Source: a virus. Taken from it: a stretch of DNA of 40,222 nucleotides. The notes beneath the pieces were generated by a model. That model saw only the letters and a list, made by a program, of their open reading frames with translations. It did no database searches and had not been told where the DNA came from. Each line of letters starts with the position of its first letter. The stretch's first letter is position 1. Position numbers and translations under genes: made by a program. This document shows positions 1,844 to 24,357 of this stretch, piece by piece. The stretch covers positions 1 to 40,222 of IMG/VR virus record IMGVR_UViG_3300025137_000086. One strand, 5' to 3'.

Positions 1844-2003
1844 TACAATTGAAGTTCAAGCAGGTGAGACCGATAGAATTATTGTGGATGGTACTAAGGT
1901 CACTGTTGATACCGGTAATGATTATTTAGATTTCTTATTTGTCTTCGGTGGCATCTTGCTACTTTATGCAGGCAAGAAAGCTATAGATAAATTTCTTAAA
2001 TGA
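1836..2003 (+). CDS. Small membrane protein, 55 aa, between terminase subunits
   Basis: ATG at 1836 lies inside the end of the previous gene, and the stop TGA (2001-2003) overlaps the terminase ATG at 2000. The first 30 residues are polar and probably beta (MNNTIEVQAGETDRIIVDGT). One membrane span follows (YLDFLFVFGGILLLYAG), then a basic tail (KKAIDKFLK). Function unknown; it could be a holin or lysis accessory. Both junctions are ATGA-type overlaps, which strongly supports translation. Confidence 0.6.
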   Translation: MNNTIEVQAGETDRIIVDGTKVTVDTGNDYLDFLFVFGGILLLYAGKKAIDKFLK

Positions 2004-3637
2004 ATAAGATAAAAAACTTTAAAAACTTTTTGTATTTATGTTGGAAGCATCTGAACTTACCAGACCCAACACCAATACAATACGATATAGCAGACTATCT
2101 GCAGGCCAAAGATAAACGATTAGTTATTCAAGCGTTCAGAGGTGTCGGTAAAAGTTGGATTACATCTGCTTTTGTCTGTCATCAACTATTATTAAACCCA
2201 CAAAGAAATATCTTAGTGGTATCAGCTTCTAAAACTAGAGCTGATGACTTTAGTACATTCACCCAAAGACTAATTGGTGAAATGCCAATGCTCGAACATC
2301 TAAAACCTAGAGATAACCAAAGACATTCAAAAATTAGTTTTGATGTTGCACCAGCACTCGCTTCTCACGCACCAAGTGTGAAATCAATGGGAGTAACTGG
2401 ACAATTAACCGGCTCACGTGCTGATTTAATCATTGCAGATGACGTTGAGAGTGCCAATAACTCACAAACGCAGCTAATGAGAGACAGATTAAGTGAAACA
2501 GTAAAAGAATTTGATGCTATTATTAAGCCTACGGTCGGTCGAATCATATTCCTAGGGACACCACAGACAGAAATGTCTTTGTATAACTCCTTAGAAGAAC
2601 GTGGATATCAAACACGTGTATGGCCAGCGTTATATCCTACCCAAACACAACTAACAGGTTATGGAAATAAACTGGCAAAAGTTATTGCTGACGAAAAAAC
2701 TTCAGAAGGTAAACCGACTGACCCAGATAGGTTTAACGAAGTTGATTTGATGGAACGTCTAAGTTCGTATGGGCGCAGTGGTTTCAATTTGCAATTCATG
2801 TTGGATACAACATTGAGTGATGCAAACAGATACCCGCTCAAACTAAACGACCTCATTATAGTTTCAGGTTGCGCTTCATGGAAAGAAGCACCTGCAAAAA
2901 TACAATGGGCTTCCGGACAAGACCAAATTACAGCGATTAGCTCAGACACACCAAATGTGGGTCTTAAGGGAGACTACTTCACCTCTTATTTATATATGAG
3001 TGATGAATTTGCGCCTTGGGAGGGAACAGTTATGTCAATTGACCCTTCTGGGCGTGGAGAAGATAGAACAGGTTATGCAGTTATAAAGATGTTGCATGGT
3101 ATTTTATATCTAACAGCTATTGGCGCACTTGAAGGTGGCTATAGTGAAGAGACATTAGAAGAACTATCGCACATAGCAAAACGCCAAAATGTTAATTACG
3201 TTGTTATTGAGAGTAACTTTGGGGATGGCATGGCAACACAATTGTTAAAACCGGTGATGTCTAAAATACATCCATGTGAAATAGAAGAAGTAAGACACAG
3301 TATTCAAAAAGAGAAACGTATTATTGATACCTTAGAGCCCATTATGAATACGCATAGGCTCGTAGTTGACCATGATATTATTAAAAAGGACTTTGAATTA
3401 CCACCTGACCACCAATTGTTTAGACAAATGACACGTCTTACGAGAGATAAAGGTGCACTTAGACACGATGACCAGATAGATGCGCTGTCTATAGCTGCAA
3501 ATTATTGGGTAGAACGCATGGATAGAGACCAAGTTCTTGCATTCGACCAACACAAAGAAGAATTATTAGACCTAGAACTAGATAGATTTATGGAGACGGC
3601 TATTGGTCGTGCCCCAGAAGGAGACAGATTTATATGA
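2000..3637 (+). CDS. terL: Terminase large subunit (DNA maturase B, T7 gp19-like)
   Basis: ATP-driven DNA packaging motor and concatemer-cutting nuclease, 545 aa (T7 gp19 is 586). Walker A is AFRGVGKSW (residues 45-53, K51). Walker B is LIIADDVES (143-151). A coupling motif GTPQ follows at 186-189. The RNase H-fold nuclease begins at MSIDPSGRGEDRTGYAV (D348), with IESNFGDG (E404) and the C-terminal acidic motif RHDDQIDALS (D490, D491, D494). All catalytic positions are present. The gene overlaps the upstream small gene and the downstream lysozyme by 4 nt, marking the end of the late operon. Confidence 0.95.
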   Translation: MNKIKNFKNFLYLCWKHLNLPDPTPIQYDIADYLQAKDKRLVIQAFRGVGKSWITSAFVCHQLLLNPQRNILVVSASKTRADDFSTFTQRLIGEMPMLEHLKPRDNQRHSKISFDVAPALASHAPSVKSMGVTGQLTGSRADLIIADDVESANNSQTQLMRDRLSETVKEFDAIIKPTVGRIIFLGTPQTEMSLYNSLEERGYQTRVWPALYPTQTQLTGYGNKLAKVIADEKTSEGKPTDPDRFNEVDLMERLSSYGRSGFNLQFMLDTTLSDANRYPLKLNDLIIVSGCASWKEAPAKIQWASGQDQITAISSDTPNVGLKGDYFTSYLYMSDEFAPWEGTVMSIDPSGRGEDRTGYAVIKMLHGILYLTAIGALEGGYSEETLEELSHIAKRQNVNYVVIESNFGDGMATQLLKPVMSKIHPCEIEEVRHSIQKEKRIIDTLEPIMNTHRLVVDHDIIKKDFELPPDHQLFRQMTRLTRDKGALRHDDQIDALSIAANYWVERMDRDQVLAFDQHKEELLDLELDRFMETAIGRAPEGDRFI

Positions 3638-4050
3638 CCTATGAAGATATTAAAGAGAGCATCAAGCTACATGAAGGGTATCGTTTAGAAACATACTACT
3701 GCACCGAAAATCATTTAACTGGTGGTTACGGTCACAAAATGTTGGATGGAGAAAGTATCCCATCTGATGAAGCTGGTTGGTCAAAGTTATTTGATAAGGA
3801 CTTTAAGATAGCTCTTAAGGGTGCTCAGGGACTCATAGAAGAGAACATGGTTAGTCCTAAAGCATTCGGTATCTTAATAGAAATGGTTTACCAATTAGGC
3901 GTGTATGGAGTTTCTAAATTTAAAAAAATGTTAATAGCTTTGGACTCCAAAGACTATCAAACAGCAAGTATTGAAATGTTAGATAGTAAGTGGGCAAAGC
4001 AAACACCGAATAGGGCAGAGGATTTATCTTCAAGGATGCGCAATATTTAG
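3634..4050 (+). CDS. T4-type lysozyme endolysin (GH24)
   Basis: A 138-residue muramidase that would cleave peptidoglycan at lysis. The start of KLHEGYRLETYYCTENHLTG aligns with the T4 lysozyme active site: E14 matches T4 E11 and T29 matches T26. The residue matching D20 is C23. A Cys at that position is tolerated in T4 lysozyme mutants, so activity is expected. The C-terminal half has the helical GH24 pattern ending WAKQTPNRAEDLSSRMR. ATG at 3634 overlaps the terminase stop (ATGA). No signal or membrane anchor is visible, so export would depend on the upstream holin candidates. A second lysis enzyme, the amidase, is at 13214. Confidence 0.9.
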   Translation: MTYEDIKESIKLHEGYRLETYYCTENHLTGGYGHKMLDGESIPSDEAGWSKLFDKDFKIALKGAQGLIEENMVSPKAFGILIEMVYQLGVYGVSKFKKMLIALDSKDYQTASIEMLDSKWAKQTPNRAEDLSSRMRNI

Positions 4051-4417
4051 TACAAAAATATGAGGGGATATATCGTATGTACTAGGCGTTTTTTCCCCCT
4101 TGCGGGGGTGTCTGCGCGCGTGGGAAAATTGTTGCAAGGCCTATAGTACGCGCGATTTTTCCGTATAATAGCAAGCGATTGTATATCCGTAGGCAGGGCG
4201 CATTTAAAATATTTTCATGTGTGTGTGCTATAGGGTCTATTTTTTTTACGGTGGTGATTAAAGTTCCCATATTAGATATATCCAAGCTTCAACCCTAGCT
4301 ATTACTATAGCTTATACCTCCACCACCTTCCCCTTAATTATACATATATAATGTATAGCTATATCTCCTATCTCCTACCTCCTGCCTATCACCTCTATAA
4401 TTAAATGTAATTGGTAG
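4051..4417. other. Non-coding region, probable genome end or terminal-repeat zone
   Basis: No convincing gene is seen. It contains a GC hairpin (CCCCC 4095-4099 and GGGGG 4104-4108), two CGCGCG patches (about 4115-4120 and 4150-4156) unusual for this AT-rich genome, an AT palindrome (TATACAT 4339-4345 with ATGTATA 4351-4357) and a C/T-rich tract of repeated CTCCTA-like units (about 4305-4397). It lies between the last late gene (lysozyme) and the first early promoter, which is where T7-like genomes have their terminal direct repeat and packaging site. The exact end cannot be placed from sequence alone. Confidence 0.5.
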
Positions 4418-4446
4418 TTGACTTGTTATCCGTTAGCGGGTATAAT
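4418..4446 (+). promoter_or_regulatory. Early host sigma70 promoter
   Basis: A -35 box TTGACT (4418-4423), exactly 17 bp, then a perfect -10 box TATAAT (4441-4446). This is the best sigma70-type match noticed in the window. It points into the early genes, in the position of the T7 early A promoters. Transcription would begin around 4453 and enter a hairpin-rich leader. Confidence 0.85.
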
Positions 4447-4831
4447 ACGCGTATCAGGTTTAAAATTGTTTATTGATTCGGACTTGATGGGATTATTTAC
4501 TGGCGTTCACCTCCCAAAGCATAACAGACACCAGACAAGCGGGAGCGCAAAGATATCTATTAAATCTTGTAACGTGCTCACTCCGCTAGCAGGACGGGCG
4601 GGAGCTTAGCTGCTAGCACTCAAACAAAACTTTATAATGAAGACTTGAAGGGCTGCTGTTTAGTGGGCAAGCATCTGCAACAAGTGTAGTCCTATATATT
4701 GGCTCTTCTAGCCTTCATTAATAAAGCTTTAATTAGTGAAGAGTTGAAGGGCTGGCGGTGGCTCTTCTACCCTTCATTAACAATGAGGGAAAATCAAACA
4801 ATCAAACAAACTAAACAAGAGGAGAATACTT
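4447..4831 (+). promoter_or_regulatory. Early transcript leader with duplicated hairpins
   Basis: A 385-nt untranslated leader between the early promoter and the gene at 4832. It holds a stem GCTAGCA (4585-4591) with TGCTAGC (4611-4617). Two related hairpins follow: unit 1 TAATGAAG (4635-4642) with CTTCATTA (4713-4720), and unit 2 TAGTGAAG (4734-4741) with CTTCATTA (4772-4779). Both carry TTGAAGGGCTG after the 5' arm and GGCTCTTCTA before the 3' arm. The leader ends in an A-rich stretch (AATCAAACAAAC at 4800-4811) and a strong AGAGGAG ribosome site. Confidence 0.55.
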
Positions 4832-5782: not shown

Positions 5783-6160
5783 ATGAAACAGAGGGGGGCA
5801 CGTGTTGCCCTTCTCGGCTTCGTTTAACTACGAAGAGTGAATTGAAAAAAGGTATATTTGAACCCTCTTCAATTTACTAGACGGCAAAAAAGGCGAGCGT
5901 GGAATGTGAAACGCTACAGAGTGATAACTTTGAAACACTAGAATAGTACAAAGCCATGCACGCCTTTACTAGACGGCAAACTTTAGGTTCTACATAGGCG
6001 TACATCTTAATACTTATGTTGCTGACTGAGCAGAATACAAATGAAACAGAACAGTCACTAAAGTTAGTCGTTTACTATACGACAAATGCAGACCTAAGTG
6101 CGAGCTGTATAAAACGAAAAAGGTGTTCGCTTGCGTTTGTTGTATTTACTAGACGGCAAT
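5783..6160 (+). ncRNA. Hairpin-linker array, part 1 (four linker copies)
   Basis: No gene is seen, but the stretch is full of stems. They include GAGGGGGGCA (5791-5800) with TGCCCTTCTC (5806-5815), CTTCGT (5818-5823) with ACGAAG (5830-5835), and AATTGAA (5840-5846) with TTCAATT (5868-5874). Linker copies TTTACTAGACGGCAAA lie at 5873, 5965, 6071 (TTTACTATACGACAAA) and 6145 (ending AAT). Between them are closed units: 5889-5902 with 5954-5967 (14 positions, one mismatch, one G-U), AACTTTAG (5979-5986) with CTAAAGTT (6058-6065), and AAATGCAG (6084-6091) with TTGTATTT (6140-6147). The terminal AAA and TTT of neighbouring linkers often close the hairpins. Structured RNA is inferred. Confidence 0.55.
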
Positions 6161-6161
6161 C

Positions 6162-6179
6162 AATCAAACAAACAAGGAG
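6162..6179 (+). repeat. Repeated translation leader, copy 1
   Basis: AATCAAACAAACAAGGAG occurs exactly here and again at 6396-6413; a variant is at 4800-4820. Each copy ends in the ribosome site of the next gene. The A/C-rich unstructured stretch may help ribosome loading. Confidence 0.7.
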
Positions 6180-6185
6180 GTTAAA

Positions 6186-6425
6186 ATGATTTTAGGTAAA
6201 ACAGAAGTCAATAGCAAGGAGTGGCGCGAACGAATAAGCTACGACCGTTTCAAGAATATTAGAAATCTAGCGGAAGACTTTTATCTTGAATATTGGAATA
6301 ACTATTTAACGATTAGCTTGATAGCAGAACATTATGAAATTACTGATGAACTGGCTGAAGAGTTAATAAATTTAGGTAGAGAAACATTTGAAAATAATCA
6401 AACAAACAAGGAGAAAATAATATGA
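6186..6425 (+). CDS. Small early protein with helix-turn-helix-like segment, 79 aa
   Basis: ATG at 6186 has an excellent ribosome site (AAGGAGG, 6174-6180). The acidic helical protein contains NYLTISLIAEHYEITDELAE followed by ELINLGRETFE. This pattern (helix, tight turn, second helix) is found in small cyanophage and marine-phage proteins and resembles a helix-turn-helix. Its last residues (NNQTNKEKII) are encoded by the repeated leader of the next gene, so the C-terminus may be a by-product of that leader. Function unknown. Confidence 0.7.
   Translation: MILGKTEVNSKEWRERISYDRFKNIRNLAEDFYLEYWNNYLTISLIAEHYEITDELAEELINLGRETFENNQTNKEKII
6396..6413 (+). repeat. Repeated translation leader, copy 2
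   Basis: Exact 18-bp copy of 6162-6179, here inside the 3' end of the preceding gene and supplying the ribosome site for the gene at 6422. Confidence 0.7.
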
Positions 6426-6607
6426 TTTATTCGATGAACATAAATATGGACAATCATTATTCCATAGACATTGATGTTGAAGATGGAACTTTTAGCCATC
6501 GACTAATGCTTAAAGGAAAATACAGTTCTAAGGAATATCCACTAGGAACTACTAGAAAGCAAATAGTAGCTAAGTTGGATAAACTTTTTAATACCACTCA
6601 AAATTAA
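6422..6607 (+). CDS. Small early hypothetical protein, 61 aa
   Basis: ATG at 6422 overlaps the previous stop region (AATATGA) and uses AAGGAG at 6408-6413. The product (MIYSMNINMDNHYSIDIDVE...) looks like a small alternating beta-strand protein with a C-terminal helix (RKQIVAKLDKLFN). No family recognised. It sits between the two halves of the hairpin-linker array and is presumably on the same early transcript. Confidence 0.6.
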   Translation: MIYSMNINMDNHYSIDIDVEDGTFSHRLMLKGKYSSKEYPLGTTRKQIVAKLDKLFNTTQN

Positions 6608-6615
6608 ATGTAACC

Positions 6616-6866
6616 AAAGGGGGCATATATAAGTGCCACTTTAAGCATACTAAAGTGCCCCTTTTAGCTACCTTTAAGAATCAGGGCGTTTTATTCTTTC
6701 TAGCCCTTTTTAAATGTAGATAGTGATTTGCTGTTTACTAGACGGCGCGTTTTATATTTTCTAGCGCCTTCTTTACTATACGGCAAATTACGCTTTGTTC
6801 ATGAGCCTCATAAATAGTGTCATGGCTATTTATGGGGTCTGAACCCATGCTTTACTAGACGGCGTA
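6616..6866 (+). ncRNA. Hairpin-linker array, part 2 (three linker copies)
   Basis: Stems: AAAGGGG (6616-6622) with CCCCTTTT (6658-6665), and inner CACTTTA (6637-6643) with TAAAGTG (6651-6657). Two related hairpins follow: AGGGC (6683-6687) with GCCCT (6703-6707), then T-rich sequence, and GGCGC (6744-6748) with GCGCC (6764-6768). They share a nearly identical 15-nt loop starting GTTTTAT and ending TTTCTA. A 12-bp stem CCTCATAAATAG (6806-6817) with CTATTTATGGGG (6826-6837) is enclosed by GTTCA (6797-6801) with TGAAC (6840-6844). Linker copies start at 6734, 6772 and 6851. The first hairpin with its T-tract could act as a weak terminator. Confidence 0.55.
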
Positions 6867-7199
6867 TTAACAGCCATTTTAAAAGTGTGAGTATATTTTT
6901 TTTTAAGCATATTGACTTCGGATTTCAAATTTGCTTAATAGTAATTGAAGAATGTTTTTATTCAAAAGGAGTAAAAGCATTTTGAGCACGAACCAGCACG
7001 TATGATATGAATGATAATCGGTGTTGCGAGGTTCAACAGGTAACACCCAAACTACCTGCTTTAAGGTTCTGCCTTAGACAAATACCTATGGGGTTTTACT
7101 CTGAGCAGCTTGCTCAAAACAAAAGCTGTTTAGATGGAATTAAGCCTTGAGCCGGGAGATGGCTCATATTTGTTTAACAATAAGGAGAACCATAATGCA
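6867..7199 (+). promoter_or_regulatory. Structured non-coding stretch with possible weak promoter
   Basis: No well-supported gene. TTGACT (6912-6917), 18 bp, then TAATAG (6936-6941) after a T-rich stretch is a weak sigma70-like candidate. An AAAAGGAG ribosome site (6964-6971) precedes only a 7-codon frame from TTG 6982. Alternative stems follow: GGTGTT (7020-7025) with AACACC (7042-7047), and CAGGTA (7037-7042) with TACCTG (7053-7058), which cannot coexist. Further stems are TAAGG (7062-7066) with CCTTA (7072-7076), TGAGCA (7102-7107) with TGCTCA (7111-7116), and TGAGCC with GGCTCA near 7147-7165. Confidence 0.4.
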
Positions 7200-7420: not shown

Positions 7421-7585
7421 ATGCCAGATACTTTTAGATATACGTCTGTGAGTGTTTCAAAGAAAGCACACGCAGATTTAACCAAACTACAAAACCAATT
7501 GCATAAGCAACATGGTGTTGAGTTCTCAATTGCGAAAGTGATTGAAAGCTTAGCTGTGAAGGCGGTCAACCATGACCAGCAGTAG
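7421..7585 (+). CDS. Ribbon-helix-helix-like small DNA-binding protein, 54 aa
   Basis: ATG at 7421 has an AAGGAAGGAG ribosome site (7403-7412). The sequence reads as one strand (FRYTSVSVSKK), a helix (AHADLTKLQNQLHKQHG) and a second helix (SIAKVIESLAVKAV). This is the order and length of Arc/MetJ/CopG ribbon-helix-helix repressors. It sits directly upstream of a winged-helix gene and the integrase, so it may regulate early or integrase expression. The fold is inferred from pattern. It is among the shortest genes here but well supported by its ribosome site. Confidence 0.6.
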   Translation: MPDTFRYTSVSVSKKAHADLTKLQNQLHKQHGVEFSIAKVIESLAVKAVNHDQQ

Positions 7586-8428: not shown

Positions 8429-8464
8429 ATGCAACTAACAAACTACAGAGAGGAGGTGAAGATA

Positions 8465-9448
8465 ATGAGTAATGAAAAACTTAATCAATATAGCAATCAA
8501 GAAGTGATGCCGTTGAATATCCCAAAAGGAGATGAAGGCGGGTTTGCTGACAGAAGACTATCTGCAATACAAAAGAAGTTACGAGCAGACGGTTGGAATG
8601 TCGCGCAAGCAAAATACGCGAAGATGATTGTTGCGTTGTTTAACGATGTGTTGGTTACGGAAGTAACGACTAGACATATAGATGCGTTAAAGGAAGACTT
8701 ACTAGCAAGAGGTCGGACTGTCGCAACAGTCAATCGTTATTTTTCAGCATTAAGTAAAATGCTAAAATACGCATTGAACCGACCGAATGAATATGGACTT
8801 AAAAATATTCCATACATTCCTTGGGGCAAAGAAGACAACGGAAGAGTTAGATGGGTTTCCATTAAAGAAGAAAGAGAAATGGTTAGGATGATGACAAGAC
8901 GTAATAAAGTCGAATACCTAAACTTCTTTTTATTCCTAATGGATACTGGTCTAAGAAAAGGTGAAGCTTGTAAGCTTACAACTGCTGACGTGCAGTTCGA
9001 TGAAGTACAAAAAGTGAAATACATTCTAGTGCTAGATACTAAGAATGGAACTAACAGAAGTGTACCTTTGTCAAACAGAGCACGTGCAATAATAGAAGCA
9101 CTTGTAGAAGGACAAGACGCATCAACTGCAATATTCCGACATAACTATTGGACATTGCAGAACCAATGGGAAGACATGAGAGAAATCATGGGTCTCGAAG
9201 AGGACAAGGAGTTTACACTCCATTGCCTGAGACACACGTTTGCATCTCGGTTAGCCCAAGCAGGGAAGCCTTTACATTTAATTGGTTTATTAATGGGGCA
9301 TAAGACTTTAGCAATGACGAAGCGCTACAGTCATTTAGCACCACAACATACCTTTAATGTACTAGACGTCCTGAACAATGACAGGCCAGAGCAACTTCTT
9401 ATAGAAGATGCAAAAAGCCAAAGCGATAAAATATCCCACATCGGATAG
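8465..9448 (+). CDS. int: Tyrosine recombinase, phage integrase
   Basis: Site-specific recombinase for integration and excision, 327 aa from ATG 8465. This start is chosen because AGGAGGT (8451-8457) lies 7 nt upstream; an ATG at 8429 in the same frame has no such site. The N-terminal SAM-like core-binding domain covers about residues 30-115. The catalytic set is complete: R164 (DTGLRKGEA), K193 (DTKNGTNRSV), H253 and R256 (LHCLRHTFASRL), H279 (LMGHKT) and Y288 (TKRYSHLAP). Marine podoviruses such as P-SSP7 and several pelagiphages also carry integrase just upstream of RNA polymerase, with attP downstream of int. That matches the palindrome found here. Confidence 0.95.
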   Translation: MSNEKLNQYSNQEVMPLNIPKGDEGGFADRRLSAIQKKLRADGWNVAQAKYAKMIVALFNDVLVTEVTTRHIDALKEDLLARGRTVATVNRYFSALSKMLKYALNRPNEYGLKNIPYIPWGKEDNGRVRWVSIKEEREMVRMMTRRNKVEYLNFFLFLMDTGLRKGEACKLTTADVQFDEVQKVKYILVLDTKNGTNRSVPLSNRARAIIEALVEGQDASTAIFRHNYWTLQNQWEDMREIMGLEEDKEFTLHCLRHTFASRLAQAGKPLHLIGLLMGHKTLAMTKRYSHLAPQHTFNVLDVLNNDRPEQLLIEDAKSQSDKISHIG

Positions 9449-9659
9449 CATTATACTTTATGCAATCGCTTGGCATTGTTACAAAATAAGAGAGTGAGAA
9501 AAGTTGTTGAGAAACGTAAGCTTTTTGAATTACGACACCGCCGTTTCTTCATTTTGCCAACGGATTACAAATCGGCGAAACAGAAGAATGCGGTGTTGGT
9601 ATTTTCAAGCATAGCACTTTGCTAGTTACACGTGAAACAATAAACTTCTCTCACTCTCT
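9417..9659. other. Compound palindrome after int, candidate attP or RNA control element
   Basis: Two inverted repeats. The first spans the int stop: GCCAAAGCGAT (9417-9427) with ATCGCTTGGC (9465-9474), one bulge. The second is larger. Its outer arms 9489-9505 (AGAGAGTGAGAAAAGTT) and 9643-9659 match at 16 of 17 positions. Inside are ACACCGC (9535-9541) with GCGGTGT (9590-9596), TTCTTC (9545-9550) with GAAGAA (9583-9588), and TTTTGCC (9552-9558) with GGCGAAA (9574-9580). The apex, 9559-9573, contains the small palindrome GATT-ACA-AATC. Read on the minus strand the apex resembles a Thr(UGU) anticodon arm. No gene fits in 9449-9693. Confidence 0.55.
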
Positions 9660-9693
9660 CTAATTTTAATTTTAAATTAAGGAGAGTAAACTT

Positions 9694-12141
9694 ATGGCTA
9701 AGATATTTGAAAGCCTACCGACATACCAAGATGAATACGCGCACGAACGCGAAATGAAAGAGCTTGGCAAGAACCGCACATCAAAAAGACGAACATCTCA
9801 TATCCAAAGAGAAGAGGAGTCCGTCACATCCTATGGCAAGGTTATGGTCGCTCAGACCATCGTACCCCTTGCTCATTCCATTAATGATTTTCTTAACACG
9901 ATAGCGGAGAAAACTGAAGGTCGGCCAGAGATTGCCTACCTGAGATTATGTGAAGTACAAGAACCAGAAATTTGTGCCTTAATCACAGCGAAGCACGTCA
10001 TTAATACAGTCACCCAACAAAAGCCCTTTACAGGAAGCTGCATAGCTCTTGGAGGAAAGATTGAAACTCAGGTACAGCTAAAAAACTTCCAAAAGCTCAA
10101 TCCAGAGCTTTACGAGGCGGTAAAGACTGACCTTGATAAGAGAAGCTGGCATTATGCCTATAAAAGGAGGAAATTACGTGAAAGCGCAAAGCGAGGTCTA
10201 GTAGAATGGACTGAGTGGAGCAAAACAGAGAAACTTCACGTAGGTATCCGCCTAGTTGAGCTTATGGCTATCAGCACAGGTCTAATTGAAATCGGTCACG
10301 ATGTTATTAAGAAGAAGAAAACTAAGGTCATAAGGCAGACCCAAAAGACTGCTGAATGGATTAGTAAACGTAATAACTTTAATGATTTATTAAATCCTGA
10401 ATATCTGCCTTGCGTGATGAAACCTAAGGAATGGACAGGAGTAGACGGCGGAGCATACTGGACATCTGAAATGCCTCCATTAGACCTCGTTAAACAGAAG
10501 AATAAGAGGTTTAAACAGGAGCTTGAGAACTTCCAGATGCCAGAGGTCTATAATGCGGTAAATGCTATGCAGAACACCCCATTTAAGATTAATACATTTG
10601 TTTTAGATGTTATGAACCACGCTTGGGATAATGGTCACGATTGGGGTGAAATGCCTTCTTCATATCTGAAGGACTTACCAAACAAACCACACGACATTGA
10701 TACTAATGCAGAGTCTCGCAAAGAATACAAAAAGCAGGCCAGCATAATTCATACTGAAAACAATCGAACCAAGTCCAAGAGGATTTTATTTTCTAAAATT
10801 CTACACTCAGGGCAAAAGTTCCGGGGATATGATAAAATATATTATCCGCTACAGTTGGATTTCCGTAGCCGAGTATATTGTGTTCCAGCATTCTTGAATT
10901 ATCAATCTATAGGTGGAGCTAAAGCTCTCCTAGAGTTTGCTAACGGCAAGCCAATCACCACCGAAAACAAAGGTGCTTTCTGGCTAGGCGTTCATGGTGC
11001 TAACACTTGGGGAGAGGATAAGGTATCTCTCGCTGACAGAAATCAATGGGTTCTCGATAATGAGGATTGGATTATAGAATGTGGTAAAGACCCTATTGCT
11101 AATTTGCAATGGAATGACGCAGATAGTCCTTATCAGTTCTTGGCCTTTTGTAATGAATGGAAACTATGGAGAGAACAGGGTGAAGGATTTATTTCTCACA
11201 TTCCTGTTGCTGTTGATGGTAGCTGTAACGGCTTACAACTTTACTCATTAATGCTTAAAGATGAAATTGCGGGAAAACTTGTAAACTTAACTGTTACAGA
11301 TACACCACAAGACATCTACCAAGTAATTGCTGATAATGTAAATGAGCGATTGAGACAAGATGCAACAGATGGCAAAGCTTATGCGCAAGCATGGCTGAAC
11401 TATAAGGTCAAAAGGTCTACAACTAAGCGTAGCATTATGACTATCTGTTATGGAAGCACCCGCTACAGTTGCACCGATTTTGTAAGAGAAGATTTACAAA
11501 AGCGTAAAGACAAAGGCGAACCACATCCATTTACTAATGATGAACTGAAACCATCAGTTTATTTAGCTGGTCTTATTTGGGATAGCATTGGTGATAACCT
11601 GAAGTCCGCCCGGGAGGGAATGGATTTCTTACAAGCTATCGCACGTGTTGTTTGTAAAGACCAACTGCCGATACATTGGATAAATCCTGTAGGCTTTCCT
11701 ATCTGGCAATCATACCCAGAAGTAAGGTCAATGAGAGTTAAGGCAATGTTGATGGGAGAGGTGATAAAGCCTCGAGTTAATACAGAGCTGGACACTACAG
11801 ACCGCAGAAGAATGGTAAATGGAGTTGCTGCAAACTTTGTTCACTCATTAGATGCAGCTTGTATGATGGTGACTGTTAATCTTGCACAAGCAAAAGGAAT
11901 ACAAAACTTTTGTAATGTGCACGACAGCTTCGGCACTACAGCAGCAGACGTTCAAGTTCTTAATGAAACTTTACGTGATGCTTTTGTTAAAGTGTTTACA
12001 GAAAATGATGTGCTTGCAGATTTTAAAGATGGCATATCAAGACTTGTACCTGAGAAGCACAGAGACAAACTACCTGAGCTTCCACGCAAAGGTAAATTAG
12101 ACATCGAGTTGTTAAGACAGAGTGAATTTTTCTTTGCTTAA
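9694..12141 (+). CDS. Single-subunit DNA-directed RNA polymerase, T7 type
   Basis: Phage transcriptase, 815 aa (T7 gp1 is 883), with an AAGGAGAG ribosome site. The conserved blocks are present: LDFRSRVYCVP (389-398), catalytic AVDGSCNGLQ (D508, matching T7 D537), TTKRSIMTICYGS (K578 and Y586, matching K631 and Y639), ANFVHSLDAACMM (713-725), and VHDSFGT (H743, D744, matching H811 and D812). The C-terminus ends EFFFA, like the T7 FAFA foot that reaches the active site. It would be made early from the host promoter at 4418 and then transcribe the rest of the genome. Its specificity loop should recognise this phage's own promoters. Confidence 0.97.
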   Translation: MAKIFESLPTYQDEYAHEREMKELGKNRTSKRRTSHIQREEESVTSYGKVMVAQTIVPLAHSINDFLNTIAEKTEGRPEIAYLRLCEVQEPEICALITAKHVINTVTQQKPFTGSCIALGGKIETQVQLKNFQKLNPELYEAVKTDLDKRSWHYAYKRRKLRESAKRGLVEWTEWSKTEKLHVGIRLVELMAISTGLIEIGHDVIKKKKTKVIRQTQKTAEWISKRNNFNDLLNPEYLPCVMKPKEWTGVDGGAYWTSEMPPLDLVKQKNKRFKQELENFQMPEVYNAVNAMQNTPFKINTFVLDVMNHAWDNGHDWGEMPSSYLKDLPNKPHDIDTNAESRKEYKKQASIIHTENNRTKSKRILFSKILHSGQKFRGYDKIYYPLQLDFRSRVYCVPAFLNYQSIGGAKALLEFANGKPITTENKGAFWLGVHGANTWGEDKVSLADRNQWVLDNEDWIIECGKDPIANLQWNDADSPYQFLAFCNEWKLWREQGEGFISHIPVAVDGSCNGLQLYSLMLKDEIAGKLVNLTVTDTPQDIYQVIADNVNERLRQDATDGKAYAQAWLNYKVKRSTTKRSIMTICYGSTRYSCTDFVREDLQKRKDKGEPHPFTNDELKPSVYLAGLIWDSIGDNLKSAREGMDFLQAIARVVCKDQLPIHWINPVGFPIWQSYPEVRSMRVKAMLMGEVIKPRVNTELDTTDRRRMVNGVAANFVHSLDAACMMVTVNLAQAKGIQNFCNVHDSFGTTAADVQVLNETLRDAFVKVFTENDVLADFKDGISRLVPEKHRDKLPELPRKGKLDIELLRQSEFFFA

Positions 12142-24274: not shown

Positions 24275-24284
24275 ATACTATGCG

Positions 24285-24357
24285 TGCCCATTGAGAGACT
24301 CAAACTCCCGACCTAGGCATTACAAATGCCTTGCTCTATCAACTGAGCTAAATGGGC
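24285..24357 (-). tRNA. tRNA-Thr (UGU anticodon)
   Basis: A full 73-nt cloverleaf on the minus strand. The acceptor GCCCATT/AATGGGC has 7 perfect pairs. The D stem is GCTC/GAGC. The anticodon arm AGGCA-TTTGTAA-TGCCT gives UGU (Thr). The 5-nt variable loop is AGGTC and the T arm GGGAG-TTTGAGT-CTCTC (one G-U). The discriminator is A73. CCA is not encoded. The usual G19-C56 tertiary pair appears as A19-U56 (D loop AGTTGATA, T loop TTTGAGT), a matched change. It lies opposite to all protein genes, so it needs its own promoter; a weak candidate is TTGCAC, 17 bp, TAAAAA (minus strand, 24398-24370). Confidence 0.85.

Follow-up and report, generated by a model that had tools for sequence, protein, structure and literature searches.

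A chain of hairpins with a conserved linker in the early region of a T7-like virus related to pelagiphages

Described systems and the array in the window

In phage T7, the early mRNA carries RNase III sites, hairpins between early genes that are unchained and lack an invariant joint sequence, and the class II pause/termination signal of the T7 RNA polymerase is short and asymmetric, with T-rich bases after it. Phage and prophage regions contain hammerhead ribozymes of types I, II and III; for instance, three hammerheads flank ardA near marR and integrase genes in Agrobacterium tumefaciens (PMC3088659). The stoperators of Cluster A mycobacteriophages are short asymmetric sites, present in many copies and mostly in one orientation, with variants between related phages (PMC6550527, PMC9283540).

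The array described here, from a marine virus record of 40,222 nt (the window, i.e., the whole stretch of DNA analyzed), resembles each of these systems in part. Like the T7 RNase III sites, its hairpins are sense-strand elements among the early genes of a T7-like phage and are predicted to be of suitable size; unlike them, they are chained by a common joint sequence, and their cleavage is putative. With the hammerheads it shares the setting of several sense-strand RNA elements and small early genes in a phage with marR and an integrase, but it has no Rfam match, and a core-and-stem scan of the window's early region detected no hammerhead core (CTGANGA...GAAA). Its motif is, as in stoperators, asymmetric, multi-copy, variable between related phages and, by placement counts, in one orientation to transcription, whereas it is confined to the early region and, in the window clade, flanked by hairpins, and a matching repressor was not found in every carrier. 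Many copies have the T-rich 3′ context of the class II pause signal, a putative likeness drawn from placement and context, although the motif is multi-copy and in the window A-rich sequence often comes next. Type III toxin–antitoxin RNA repeats and CRISPR arrays likewise consist of repeated units that share an element; here, however, the units are unrelated in sequence and unequal in length, and a Pfam search of the early ORFs found no toxin or cas gene. An earlier reading of the letters (the sequence-only reading) had set aside both CRISPR and tRNAs, and rightly so: the linker spacings are irregular (92, 106, 74, 589, 38 and 79), the spacers self-pair, and ARAGORN and Rfam find a single tRNA, at about 24284-24357. 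This tRNA gene, a complete tRNA-Thr (tgt), lies on the minus strand (24284-24357), just before the presumed capsid gene. Neither the motif nor hammerheads of pelagiphages turned up in the literature searched, and the hairpin chain and its motif are apparently undescribed so far.

The window displays a T7-like gene order and is a Pelagivirus relative; its coordinate start is permuted. Its single-subunit RNA polymerase (RNAP) shows 66% identity to those of the Pelagibacter phages HTVC031P, HTVC142P and Eistla, and kinship to such phages suggests a SAR11-type host. The array lies between the lysozyme and the integrase and RNAP genes (Table 1). It contains seven copies of TTTACTA(G/T)ACG(G/A)C, all on the + strand and all verified at the starts originally read from the letters; TTTACTAKACGRC has 7 exact matches in the window as against 0.01 expected from dinucleotide shuffles. 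Since 589 bp with two ORFs part linkers 4 and 5, the linkers form two blocks. The unit lengths of 76, 90, 58, 22 and 63 nt first assigned to the array are approximate.

Table 1. Features of the window and of the linker array
Feature	Position	Strand	Remarks
Terminase	2000-3637		
Lysozyme	3634-4050		
Early region			5.6 kb, after lysozyme; contains integrase, RNAP next
Phage-promoter-like AAAGTTCCCATATTAGA	4260..4276	+	left end of early region
Host sigma-70-like promoter, TTGACT-17-TATAAT	4418..4446	+	11/12 consensus match only; upstream of early genes
Hairpin preceding linker 1	5836..5878	+	also in L024
Linker 1, TTTACTAGACGGC	5873..5885	+	exact match
Unit 1 hairpin, AAAGGCG...CGCCTTT	5889..5967	+	unit z = -5.0; arms rank 0.0
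Linker 2, TTTACTAGACGGC	5965..5977	+	
Unit 2 hairpin, closing helix TAGACGGC/GTCGTTTA	5970..6074	+	
Linker 3, TTTACTATACGAC	6071..6083	+	
Unit 3 hairpin, ATACGACAAATGCAG pairs with bases ahead of linker 4	6077..6145	+	
Linker 4, TTTACTAGACGGC	6145..6157	+	immediately 5′ of leader CAATCAATCAAACAAACAAGGAGG, ORF 6186-6425
Two small ORFs between linker blocks	6186-6425, 6422-6607 (6186..6607)	+	
Phage-promoter-like AAAGTGCCCCTTTTAGC	6652..6668	+	85 nt ahead of linker 5 core; same distance in L009, L027
Long hairpin from linkers 5 and 6, outer GTGATTTGCTGT/ACGGCAAATTAC, inner GGCGC/GCGCC	6723..6791	+	
Linker 5, TTTACTAGACGGC	6734..6746	+	
Linker 6, TTTACTATACGGC	6772..6784	+	
Unit 6 hairpin, after conserved CTTTGTTCATG	6797..6844	+	z about -5 in window, L009, L027
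Linker 7, TTTACTAGACGGC then GTATTAACA	6851..6863	+	likewise in L009, L027
Integrase	8429-9448		
RNAP	9694-12141		after integrase

Placement of the motif and of hammerheads among relatives

Conservation of the linkers was confirmed in relatives: the array is kept in L009 (7 copies), L010 (7), L011/L027 (one contig, 6), L030, L024, L341 and L343, and the spacing of the second block is similar among them. Across the whole viral collection an exact 16-mer recurs in 17 contigs, most of the single-copy matches likely being due to chance. At about 80 related RNAP loci, the core ACTAGACGG is found upstream of the RNAP gene in 71 sense copies versus 1 antisense copy, and downstream of it in no sense copy and 1 antisense copy in 649 kb. 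In the cultured phages HTVC109P, HTVC019P, HTVC022P, HTVC201P, HTVC304P, HTVC121P, HTVC168P and Eistla it is always in sense and upstream of the RNAP, and the minus strands of 12 cultured phages and the window hold no exact copy. ACTAGACGG is a lineage-wide signal across several clades, with the extended consensus (G/T)ACTAGACGG(C/T)(G/A) and flanks that are not conserved. T-rich bases follow the motif at positions 13-16; in the window, the next bases are often A-rich. The copies are distributed over 5′ leaders, intergenic gaps and the interior of early genes; they often lie about 30 nt ahead of a start codon, and the last copy of a group is often directly 5′ of an unstructured leader and the ribosome-binding site of an early gene. 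In L153, three ACTAGACGG copies lie inside the integrase gene (- strand, 1958-2764) and a fourth immediately ahead of its start codon. The integrase copies, three in one clade, fall in two reading frames and overwrite conserved residues (LT[ED]RA becoming LTRRC); therefore, the constraint acts on the nucleotides.

Hammerhead-like elements, of types I/III and of type II, are likewise present in the early regions of relatives, 82 in sense and none in antisense. Most are below Rfam cut-offs; one of them, with E 8.5e-6 to Rfam Hammerhead_3, is under Rfam's own cut-off. In HTVC031P and HTVC142P, hammerheads occupy the place where motif-bearing phages have the last copy of the group, 5′ of an early-gene leader. 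Motif number and hammerhead number are negatively correlated (Spearman -0.38, P 0.006, a value not corrected for kinship). Individual genomes have up to four hammerheads, which were seen at 314, 1351, 2076 and 41004 in L052; 8793, 9316 and 10047 in L053; 611, 1111 and 2368 in L055; 994 in L056; 494 and 1277 in L057; and at many IMG/VR loci.

Exchanges are also seen among close relatives of L395 at the junction flanked by a terminator and the RNAP promoter, which is occupied by arrays of ACTAGACGGC, by three copies of ACTTGACGGT or by arrays of (GAGCT)n, or is empty; exchange of this type recurs at a second junction. In L389, the three ACTTGACGGT copies replace the ACTAGACGGC array upstream of the RNAP, and L385 (7858-9898), L378, L382, L391 and L392 have sense-only (GAGCT)n at sites where close relatives carry ACTAGACGGC. 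Apart from the motif, only (GAGCT)n and hammerhead words are similarly enriched among 9-mers of the early sense strand. GGGGCGA is repeated in early leaders of L279 (HTVC134P; 1660-1740 and 3551-3570), perhaps as another repeat class.

Closing helices of the units

The variable, sequence-unrelated units do self-close into stems, as had been surmised from the letters. For this comparison, AGACGGC plus the next bases counted as the 5′ arm, and the stretch preceding the next linker plus TTT counted as the 3′ arm. In 22 units of the window clade, own-arm duplexes have a mean of -11.5 kcal/mol as opposed to about -7.0 for swapped arms, with 0/5000 permutations as good; the ranks in this arm-swap test are 0-0.05 for window units 1, 2 and 3 as well as for the unit of linkers 5-6. 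In a smaller control set, core and extension taken together agree with this (P below 1e-4), the extension alone gives a weaker result (P 0.03), and arms shifted inward likewise pair above chance (P 0.01). The signal was weak in an earlier closing test restricted to AAA/TTT and became strong once AGACGGC was included. Antisense arms pair equally well, as expected, and hence folding alone cannot tell the strand. Relative to shuffles, the fold of block 5785-6165 has z = -5.2 and that of block 6669-6890 z = -6.3, with z = -2.3 for the two ORFs between them.

Folds of relatives read as keeping these pairings with other letters: the unit 2 closing helix is AGACGGC/GCCGTCT in L010, and the linker 5-6 hairpin persists in L009 (arms CGGTTTGCC(T)GT/ACGGCAAATCG), L030 (TGAGCTGT/ACGGCTCA), L010 and L341/L343. 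Between linkers 6 and 7 (6785-6850), a stable hairpin comes after the conserved CTTTGTTCATG, and it stays while its arms vary among relatives. Outside the window clade, the tendency to close is present but weak (mean -4.3 vs -3.1; P 0.0004); the hairpins may thus be a window-clade refinement of a more basic sequence signal.

The further proposal that the linkers are single strands of about 10 nt failed, the predicted accessibility of the motif being 0.39 versus 0.43 with shuffled flanks. Predicted folds place AGACGGC mostly in helices and part neighboring helices by only about 2-3 nt (AC/CU). As the best helices include AGACGGC on one side and the pre-linker bases plus UUU on the other, the array is better described as a hairpin chain hinged at AC(U). 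We rejected an anticodon-stem-like hairpin (5 pairs, 7-nt loop): an upstream complement occurs in 14/38 copies against 5.8 expected, yet it is not copy-specific. Two degenerate pair scans gave listed matches that were mostly chance.

Possible roles of the array

Because the motif is placed early and only in sense, sits at the joint of helices and occupies a niche that in sister phages also holds self-cleaving RNAs, we favor action at the RNA level. Our preferred reading, held with less than even confidence, is that the array may be a sense-strand RNA element that processes, insulates or stabilizes early messages. Each 13-mer would join two helices, with UUU closing one hairpin, AC(U) acting as the hinge and AGACGGC opening the next; transcription would then yield a string of hairpins ahead of and between the small early genes, and a nuclease or RNA-binding factor would read the hinge or the AGACGG helix. 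We infer that the region is transcribed and that recognition acts on the RNA, which would then be cleaved or insulated; processing would put RNA ends at ACUAGACGG. By analogy, the role of the array could parallel that of the self-cleaving hammerheads in sister phages and of the RNase III sites in T7. A stronger version, which we consider possible but rather unlikely, is that the joint is a new RNA signal of T7-like pelagiphages that marks early messages for dedicated cleavage or control and is evolutionarily exchangeable with hammerheads and (GAGCT)n. A signal that lies near or replaces hammerheads in several clades of SAR11 phages points to a layer of early-gene control, which is testable in cultured phages with the motif (HTVC109P, HTVC019P and HTVC022P) or with hammerheads (HTVC031P).

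The main rival to an RNA element, likewise rather unlikely though serious, is a signal in the DNA that would act in one direction to stop or pause early-region transcription. It could consist of stoperator-like sites for a phage protein, or of a pause/termination signal by which the polymerase of the phage itself is kept from extending late transcription into the early genes. The seriousness of this rival stems from the copies within genes (integrase and other early ORFs) as well as in leaders, from the copies around phage promoters and from the motif being no more exposed in predicted RNA folds than expected; the gene-internal and promoter-flanking copies suit an RNA element no better than a DNA-level signal, and given the weak closing stems of other clades the hairpins may be secondary. 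Such a signal would also account for asymmetric sites in many copies with one orientation to transcription, like L5 stoperators (PMC6550527, PMC9283540), for the T-rich bases that follow, for arrays that lie between terminator and RNAP promoter or exactly at a phage promoter start, and for differences in motif class between close relatives. However, a DNA site needs no copy-specific RNA helices, which are present in the window clade, and the motifs of L395 and L385 differ (ACTAGACGGC vs GAGCTGAGC) despite polymerases that are 91% identical. Moreover, the obvious repressor appears to be missing from these two, which carry arrays: the integrase-linked regulator, detected in several cultured carriers as well as in the window, was not found in either. 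This regulator is unsupported as the sole recognizer, and the small early proteins of L395 and L385, considered as candidates, showed no informative domain.

Closed hairpins with unrelated, exchangeable interiors, units that swap positions between L010 and the window and the conserved hairpin after CTTTGTTCATG would also fit a precursor of several structured RNAs, or an RNA decoy for a host nuclease or RNA-binding protein. This we regard as improbable: separate functional RNAs would need conserved interiors, whereas only the last unit has one in relatives, and in many relatives the motif has little structure around it or sits within genes. Still less probable is a shared boundary sequence promoting cassette exchange between phages; the region is very mosaic, and units and flanking modules are swapped at or beside the motif, but neither the strict strand bias nor the two-frame presence inside a conserved integrase is expected of a recombination joint. 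The suggestion from the sequence-only reading that the linkers are promoters of the phage RNA polymerase is very improbable, despite their repetition on one strand and frequent position shortly ahead of start codons, because another sequence found across the genome, AAAGTNCCCNTNNTAGA, suits that function, and ACTAGACGG has no sense copy downstream of the RNAP. Judged by its placement, AAAGTNCCCNTNNTAGA is probably the phage RNA polymerase promoter: in sister phages it precedes the RNAP and SSB genes, occurs in the nrd region, before the tail fiber gene and near the genome end, and in the window it lies at 4260, 20863 and 35233, with a one-mismatch copy at 6652. Many AAAGTNCCCNTNNTAGA sites were also seen in L052-L055 and L057. 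Host Chi, boxA or another host signal was rejected, as GACTAGACGG has 3 matches versus 34 for the reversed control in 60 streamlined genomes of one order, which may not be SAR11.

Other features were noted in the early region of the window. A 54-aa ORF (7421-7585) without a Pfam match resembles, by eye, a small ribbon-helix-helix-type protein. The gap between integrase and RNAP (9449-9693) contains TTACAAA in a stem-like setting, which by eye could belong to an attachment site. At 4635-4783, two copies of an internal-loop hairpin (TARTGAAGASTTGAAGGGCTG...TGGCTCTTCTASCCTTCATTA) lie in the leader of the first early ORF.
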